Positions 4,531-37,818 of a DNA stretch of 64,000 nucleotides are shown here, in pieces. This DNA comes from Planctomycetales bacterium (GTDB taxonomy: Bacteria > Planctomycetota > Planctomycetia > Planctomycetales > Planctomycetaceae). Below the pieces are notes generated by a model that worked only from the letters and a program-made list of their open reading frames with translations, had not been told where the DNA came from and did no database searches. The translations under genes and the position numbers were made by a program. Position 1 is the first letter of the stretch, and the number at the start of each line of letters is the position of its first letter. Location of the stretch: contig JAPLOA010000070.1 of the NCBI GenBank assembly GCA_026400835.1, forward strand, positions 1 through 64,000, given 5' to 3'.

Positions 4531-4841
4531 CAGTCCCAACTCAACTTCCGGATGTTTCGTGTCTTGAAATCCCAACCCGAAACGTCAGTGAGGGATTTTG
4601 CACACAACTCGATCCCTCGCTGACGCTTTTTGAAGTTGCGCATTTGGGACTATCCCAACCCGACGCGTCAGCGAGGGATTGTGTTTTTGCGTTTCGGCAG
4701 TGTTTCTAAAAATCCCTCGCTGACGCTTCGGGTTATGATAAATCATAGTGTTTTCGGAACTATGGTCTATCTCATGCGCGGAATGCGCAACTTCAAAACT
4801 GACGCTTCGGGTTGGGATAGATGGAACTTATTTCGGGACTG
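4531..4841. repeat. Repeat element A, copy 1, interrupted by element B
   Basis: Outer ends are cagtccc at 4531 and gggactg at 4841. After removing the 171-bp element B and one copy of its target duplication, the remaining 132 bp aligns along its whole length with element A2 at 37685-37818. The interior holds the core palindrome with arms from about 4571-4596 and 4611-4628, continued at 4807-4820. No coding capacity. Confidence 0.85.
4628..4798. mobile_element. 171-bp MITE-like element B, 17-bp TIRs, 8-bp target duplication
   Basis: Perfect 17-bp terminal inverted repeats lie at 4628-4644 (ttttgaagttgcgcatt) and 4782-4798. Both ends are flanked by the direct repeat ctgacgct (4620-4627 and 4799-4806). 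Element A2 at 37685-37818 carries this octamer once and has no insertion, so it serves as an empty site. The interior carries its own 30-bp palindrome arms at 4651-4680 and 4711-4740, related to the core palindrome of element A. It encodes nothing and would need a transposase supplied elsewhere. Confidence 0.85.
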
Positions 4842-8821: not shown

Positions 8822-9290
8822 TCGTGAATCCTTCACGCACCTCTTAGTTGAACCTGCAACTCGAAACATGGTTTGGTGCTGCAAGAGCATTTTAGCCGCA
8901 TTTCGACTTATCAGGTCCGTTCCTCCTCCGTTCCAGAAACGTTATCGGGTGCAGTGTTGGGACGCCTTCACCAAAAATTCCGATTGGGTAAGACGTGCGG
9001 ATTTGTTCGAGAAAGAGGCCGATGATGGAAATTCGTGTTCAAGATTGGATATTTGGCTGATGCTTGCACAGAAGCTTGTCGGCGGTAGAGGCTGTCTTGT
9101 TTAACGGCAAGCCGCAGGCGATTGCGCCCCGGGATCAGTCCCGAAATACGGCATGAATAGCTTGGGGACTCAGTTCATCGGGCGCTTTATGGCCGGAATT
9201 CCCCGGTGCTCCGTTCGAGCCTGTGAGATACTACGCGAACGCCTGCGGCTTGCCGTTAACCGAATTAAGCGAAGACGTCATCGCCCCCTC
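8822..9290. other. Intergenic region with one inverted-repeat element
   Basis: No gene is supported. The element at 9101-9259 occupies the right part. Confidence 0.6.
9101..9259. repeat. 159-bp segment bounded by perfect 19-bp inverted repeats
   Basis: The sequence ttaacggcaagccgcaggc at 9101-9119 recurs inverted and without mismatch at 9241-9259. The interior encodes nothing recognisable. No flanking direct repeat was found, so insertion cannot be shown. Confidence 0.75.
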
Positions 9291-37684: not shown

Positions 37685-37818
37685 CAGTCCCGAAATAACG
37701 TCCAGTCGTTTCCATGCCTTGAAATCCCAACCCGAAACGTCAGTGAGGGATTTTGCACAGCAACTCGATCCCTCGCTGACGCTTCGGGTTAGGATAGACT
37801 GAACTTGCTTCGGGACTG
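37685..37818. repeat. Repeat element A, copy 2 (uninterrupted)
   Basis: A 134-bp element bounded by cagtcccgaa and its inverse, with the core palindrome inside. It aligns throughout with element A1 at 4531-4841 once the inserted element B is removed, and shows the undisturbed ctgacgcttcgggtt site. No flanking target duplication could be found. Confidence 0.88.

Follow-up and report, generated by a model that had tools for sequence, protein, structure and literature searches.

Two copies of a 134-bp repeat lie in the 64,000-nucleotide stretch of Planctomycetales DNA analysed here (the window; contig JAPLOA010000070.1 of assembly GCA_026400835.1), and one of them is split by 171 bp that the other lacks. 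What are these 171 bp, how did they come to lie there, and what moved them? A sequence-only reading had proposed that one palindrome-bearing element had hopped into another with an 8-bp target duplication, and the details on which it relied are borne out. The interrupting DNA, element B (4628–4798, forward strand; delimited by sequence, BLAST and an end-pair census), is a 171-bp non-autonomous mini-element. Its left 17-bp terminal inverted repeat, TTTTGAAGTTGCGCATT (4628–4644, forward strand), has its exact reverse complement at the right end (4782–4798, reverse strand), so that the ends pair at 17 of 17 positions, with a mismatch at the 18th pair. The octamer CTGACGCT stands on both sides of B (4620–4627 and 4799–4806, both on the forward strand; the duplication length is taken from the 41 copies discussed below), and the two parts of the host repeat, A1, occupy 4531–4627 and 4799–4841 (forward strand). 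The empty site is represented by the uninterrupted relative A2 (37685–37818, forward strand), which has a single CTGACGCT at 37776–37783; when the flanks of B are joined and one octamer is removed, they align with A2 at 87% over 134 bp.

Repeat A has the ends CAGTCCCGAAATAA and two inverted 28-bp arms inside, and in the window B has entered its right arm. B also carries a palindrome of its own, as had been claimed, and both arms are present: the left arm (4651–4680, reverse strand) contains the octamer CGCGTCAG at 4664–4671 (B positions 37–44), and the right arm (4711–4740, forward strand) contains CTGACGCT at 4720–4727 (B positions 93–100). The predicted RNA fold of B has an energy of -87.1 kcal/mol versus -44.3 for shuffled sequences (z -10.4), and a role for the palindrome as a terminator or RNA-stability element is possible. 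Elsewhere in the window there are a further uninterrupted copy of the same two palindrome arms with a loop of 30 (2413–2497), a repeat array of about 148-bp units (1–682) in which a 41-nucleotide stretch starting CGCTGACGAAAC occurs four times, and an inverted repeat with TTAACGGCAAGCCGCAGGCG (9101–9259). This last motif recurs within one of the longer B-ended elements mentioned below (C80:3659–3896), and so may belong to another dispersed palindrome family.

B is abundant in its own genome, where there are at least 104 BLAST matches to it (40 of 200 candidates scored). A 15-bp B end with at most two mismatches is found at 193 sites versus 19 for a reversed control, and TTTTGAAGTTGCGCRTT is found exactly at 98 sites versus none for its control. 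For a census of copies we used 101 stretches, window included, that cover 1.86 of the 7.58 Mb; these were mostly chosen because they hold hits, so the frequencies below are not genome-wide. With a copy defined as a pair of ends (at most four mismatches in 17) lying 160–178 bp apart, the census contains 62 copies. The interior of B was matched in all 58 copies of a first census and hence in at least 58 of the 62; the four added later were counted by ends and length alone, and at least one of these, C35:217980, begins with another interior.

Of the 62 copies, 41 have one and the same arm on both sides, equally oriented (forward in 20, reverse in 21) and always interrupted at that one octamer. 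The two octamers agree at all eight positions in 22 of these clean copies and differ at one position in 12, at two in 4 and at three in 3; no clean copy has an exact repeat of any other length from 3 to 12 bp. When partners were shuffled (10,000 runs), exact 8-bp repeats averaged 5.35 and never exceeded 14, versus the 22 observed. Two further copies have exact 8-bp duplications in non-palindromic sequence (C112:69685, CAGACACT; C66:12584, GATTGACT), so the duplication does not simply come from the repeat in which B usually lies. The remaining copies have inverted flanks (6 of 62), an arm on one side (10) or an arm on neither side (5). The no-arm class includes the two non-palindromic insertions, two copies whose repeats differ at one and at two positions and which lie in a second palindrome, CCCCAG[GCTAAAGC]CTGGGG, and C35:84245, which has no clear duplication (4 of 8 positions mismatched). 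One of the ten that our script scored as one-sided, C73:60316, is in fact an exact insertion in the second palindrome, CCCCAA[GCTGAAGC]CTGGGG. Inverted octamers, as expected from recombination between copies, flank those at C10:61621, C11:55931, C35:162327, C60:55560 and C103:59171. Thus the inverted end pairs about 170 bp apart that the sequence-only reading had suggested looking for do exist, mostly with consistent ends and duplications, and its worry that other copies might lack them applies to a minority (6, 10 and 1 of 62 for copies that are inverted, one-sided and without a clear duplication), which need later recombination or decay. There are also three elements of 227–238 bp with B-type ends and other interiors (C103:79825–80051, C80:3659–3896 and C11:18621–18847), whose octamers are of the same kind and differ at 0, 6 and 2 positions, respectively.

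The clean insertions define the target of B as ATCCCTCG[8 bp]TCGGGTTG, and B itself carries two copies of that site. This goes beyond the sequence-only reading, in that insertion is specific for one octamer of the palindrome and the palindrome inside B is its own target. We removed B and one octamer in silico and assigned each host to the repeat with the highest BLAST score, with a single example standing for A, for B and for C (C being a third kind of repeat with a loop of 29–30 around the same arms); the hosts of the 41 clean sites are then A in 15 cases, B in 14, C in 7 and other sequences in 5 (none of these matching over more than 80 bp), although some assignments are ambiguous because A, B and C share arms and palindrome. 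The census supports the proposal that one palindrome-bearing element has hopped into another. Because B carries its own target, it nests in itself: four full-length cases of B in B were found (C112:90973, C35:45124, C52:92677 and C77:6449, with 171–175 bp aligned), and the right-arm octamer (B positions 93–100) is the site of the nested B in other copies. The outer copy of the 352-bp C52 nest has its own exact repeat, AGCGTCAG. Two 216-bp composites with exact outer repeats (C10:59331 and C60:55560) fit an insertion into the left arm of B that was followed by deletion between the repeated halves. From the C52 nest and the composites together, both arms of B look usable, and the left-arm octamer CGCGTCAG is probably a target as well. 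Each insertion would thus use one target and bring two.

Could the distribution of B have arisen without transposition? If the 171 bp were an ancestral part of A, precisely deleted from A2, then excision could in principle have left one octamer behind; but the same 171 bp are found, in either orientation, within A, B, C and other sequences, 22 of 41 clean copies have an exact extra octamer, and 7 of 19 A end pairs (A2 among them) are uninterrupted at 134–135 bp, so this view, which the sequence-only reading had itself raised against its proposal, is almost certainly wrong. The idea that copies spread when palindromes recombined or underwent gene conversion with one another draws some support from the six inverted-flank copies and from composites of 216 and 271–275 bp, which suggest that copies do recombine with one another. 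It would not, however, account for exact within-copy duplications in 22 of 41 cases, where shuffling gave at most 14, or for exact-duplication insertions outside any palindrome, and we regard it as highly improbable as the means by which B spread.

A different question is what in the target is read, and here the relatives are informative. B-type ends (at most two mismatches) were found 66 times in 27 relatives, the two ends of one element being counted separately. The arm flank, CCCTCG or ACCCGA, lies at the right distance from 16 of these ends exactly and from 14 with one mismatch, versus 0.04% and 1.1% (1.2% together) of 20,000 positions drawn at random from the same loci; the other 36 ends have two or more mismatches of 6, and the single end observed in each of G049, G150 and G041 has four or five. 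In G014 the octamers differ (CCGTTGGC) and some ends retain CCTCG or ACCCGA as their flank. Since the octamer differs among species and the flank is often kept, it is probably the flank rather than the octamer that the transposase reads. A transposase that recognises the hairpin shape of the target and not its sequence would be compatible with our overall interpretation of B, and such a preference could be seen in the octamers that lie centrally in other palindromes (C73:60316 and an autonomous element of G157 described below) as well as in the changed octamers of G014. We think it unlikely, given the two exact insertions in non-palindromic sequence, the weak hairpin that a single arm makes (judged by eye) and the one common register of the arm that all 41 clean insertions use. 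The palindrome core occurs more widely than B: one degenerate pattern finds it in 11 of 40 genomes in three genera, the own genome included, and a strict end-pair pattern finds B in one of 40, its own. That pattern is too strict, as a diverged B-like copy exists in G017, a relative in the same genus.

What might have moved B is also found in relatives. Within the order, exact copies of TTTTGAAGTTGCGCRTT are present in 34 of 170 genomes, among them the own one, and in 14 of 58 genera; its control had no match among the matches listed. Four relatives have complete, full-length elements. Two of these came from a scan of 50 loci (45 distinct places), a 1507-bp element (L259/L269) with the octamer CGCGCCAG on both sides and one of 1506 bp (L262/L270) with CGCGCAAG on both sides; the other two are one of 1526 bp (L271) repeating GCGATCGG and one of 1495 bp (L272, in G157) whose octamer GCCGGAGC is central in the palindrome CGTTCCCAA[GCCGGAGC]TTGGGAACG. 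The 8-bp duplication is exact in all four, and the 1507- and 1506-bp elements sit in A[AG]CCCGA[..]CGAGGGA of the same palindrome that B uses. The 14-bp end TTTTGAAGTTGCGC is present exactly at both ends of three of the elements, and in the 1495-bp element its first base is C instead of T; L259 and L262 each have one end that fits the 17-mer of B. B and these elements were compared at their ends only, not in their interiors. L259 and L262 each encode a 484-amino acid protein that matches DDE_Tnp_1 (6.4e-18 and 3e-17), and the open frames of the four elements are 484, 484, 474 and 459 amino acids long, the last of which starts downstream of a TAA within a longer match. Transposase matches at 1e-20 are present in 7 of the 170 genomes searched. 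A Y-(2)-R-(3)-E-(6)-K signature is found at Y366, R369, E373 and K380 in four of five aligned proteins (the fifth is shorter and diverges after E373), and D128 and D230 are invariant; our guess, assigned by eye, is that these two are the other catalytic residues.

Other relatives hold pieces of the same picture. G017 contains a B-like element, with 77% identity over B positions 1–101, that is split after its right-arm octamer CTCACGCT (B positions 93–100) by TTGTGAAGTTGCGC, a B-type end (1 mismatch of 14) leading into a fragment of this transposase with 60% identity over 85 amino acids; this fragment stops at the end of the contig, so the second octamer lies beyond view. A profile search finds transposase fragments in G014 and G008 as well. 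In G117, which belongs to another genus, there are elements of 159–160 bp (L234–L237) with B-type ends and a palindrome arm inside, so carriage of the target is not peculiar to the genome studied here.

The sequence-only reading had pointed to a transposase gene between the same ends as a check on its proposal. Such a gene, IS4-like and between nearly the same ends, is present in relatives and was not found in B's own genome. There, a search with the transposase at 1e-20 gave no match, and a profile of five sequences gave a single 67-residue match (1.1e-4) inside a 423-amino acid open frame; these whole-genome protein searches cover one transposase family. B-type end pairs 263–5000 bp apart number 55 in this genome, with one more of 2176 bp in C73, and no transposase was seen by eye in the open frames of two stretches with long pairs, C10 and C27. 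B is therefore probably orphaned in its own genome, although a 112-contig draft that breaks at repeats makes absence of the gene something short of proof.

The own genome does have a multicopy IS1182-family element (C77:1–1686, L076, and the contig ends C35, C25, C80, C41, C60, C112, C106 and C27), and its transposase, complete in C77 (NF033551, 2.4e-94), was first chosen as the autonomous partner for the B-type ends that flank it at many contig ends. Among the 16 IS1182 ends that the sampled stretches contain, 10 do have such an end outside them, which would favour this element as the mover of B, since it often stands between B-type ends. The IS1182 element, however, has ends of its own, GAGGCYGTGAA/TTCACGGCCTC, and GAGG-type inverted ends were found on either side of it at 9 of 18 homologous loci (the own one and one duplicate included). 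Its target is also different, namely the 3-nucleotide GGA loop of another palindrome, CAGGCCC[GGA]GGGCCGACA; in L183 and L186, from relatives, the element has the GGA loop on either side, a 3-bp and not an 8-bp repeat. Six IS1182 ends have no clear B-type end (one of these is cut by a contig end, and two, in C26 and C75, may be decayed), and the 227-bp B-ended element at C103:79825–80051 has variants of the GGA palindrome inside and an exact 8-bp duplication without any IS1182 element. With its own ends and its own palindromic target, the IS1182 element was dropped as the partner of B on these comparative, not biochemical, grounds, and we consider its involvement very unlikely. Most IS1182 ends in the own genome abut GGA; these belong to different contig ends and do not form the two sides of a single copy, and at the right end in C77 the flank is inverted. 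These arrangements suggest loop-duplicating insertion in this IS1182 branch, unlike the loss of the stem-loop described for IS1272. That IS1182-family element resembles B in having palindromes as targets, and differs in replacing the stem-loop, in making no target duplication and in its transposase family, according to the matched passages of PMC5678879.

The transposase of the relatives, to return to the partner that we favour, is best described as IS4-like rather than filed as a curated member of a family, because all NCBIfam scores among the matches listed are below cutoff: the best IS4 model, NF033592, gave 57.5 bits versus a cutoff of 115, and the best score of all, for IS701, was 103.6 versus 150. 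When the transposase profile was searched against PDB sequences, no match at 0.1 was obtained. The IS4 subgroups are characterised by a complete YREK signature and duplications of 7–13 bp, and IS701 by 4-bp duplications and an incomplete YREK (PMC2266710, De Palmenaer et al. 2008, in the portions matched). With its complete YREK, its gene without a frameshift and its 8-bp duplication, the partner agrees with the former; IS701 was rejected on the YREK signature, the duplication length and its sub-cutoff score. Within IS4, the ISPepr1 subgroup is described in those portions as 1500–1600 bp long, with ends YT-AA-YTT---A and duplications of 7–8 bp. Like the partner, it has a DDE gene without a frameshift, a complete YREK, a length of about 1.5 kb, 5'-YT ends and an 8-bp duplication; its insertion sites are given as AT-rich, in contrast to the palindromes found here. 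The length (1495–1526 bp), the 8-bp duplication and the 5'-YT of our elements fit this description, and the rest of the end consensus fits partially and only if shifted by two bases. Judged by the subgroup description, the partner thus appears closest to ISPepr1 in size, 5'-YT end and duplication length.

B itself resembles bacterial MITEs, which are summarised in the relevant part of PMC3733652 as 70–300 bp long with ends of 15–30 bp and no coding capacity: it is 171 bp long, has 17-bp ends and is too short for a transposase gene, and its ends are shared with an autonomous element in relatives, none having been found in its own genome. The general descriptions in that part do not include site-specific insertion into a motif that the MITE itself carries, and in this B differs from them. 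REP-type repeats are reported there in Planctomycetes. REP sequences are known targets of IS3, IS110, IS4, IS256 and IS5 elements, and ISRm22 (IS4 family) and other REP-targeting insertion sequences insert, like B, in a genomic REP-type palindrome (PMC1525189, Tobes and Pareja 2006, in the passages matched); these carry transposase genes, and a small element that carries its own target is absent from the descriptions in those passages. Among the matches listed, the open-licence literature contained no bacterial mini-element with its own target, which is weak evidence of absence.

We consider it very probable that B is an IS4-derived, REP-targeting MITE that carries its own target and is moved in trans by an IS4-like transposase. 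On this explanation B would derive from an IS4-family insertion sequence, either by internal deletion or by retention of the ends alone. A transposase such as that of the relatives, which is the likely mover of B, would act in trans to pair the two 17-bp ends and cut B out, a cut-and-paste chemistry suggested by what is known of the IS4 family; B would then enter an arm of the REP-like palindrome at a fixed position, through cuts staggered by 8 bp, and fill-in would give the 8-bp duplication. Because B carries two arms, each insertion would disrupt one target and bring two, so B could multiply within the repeats and come to nest in B, A and C. Whether carriage of the target is adaptive, in that it would maintain a self-replenishing safe harbour at a distance from genes, and whether A, B and C, which have different ends, converged on a shared network of palindromic landing sites, are more tentative matters, and we lean somewhat against both.

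The census of B amounts to a record, made in nature, of where a site-specific DDE transposon has landed, with dozens of targets that can be read, and the element offers a simple case for how a selfish element may spare its host by supplying its own landing sites. The full-length relatives, at 1.5 kb and with one gene, allow the choice of target to be tested, and a transposase restricted to one position of a short motif would be of practical interest.
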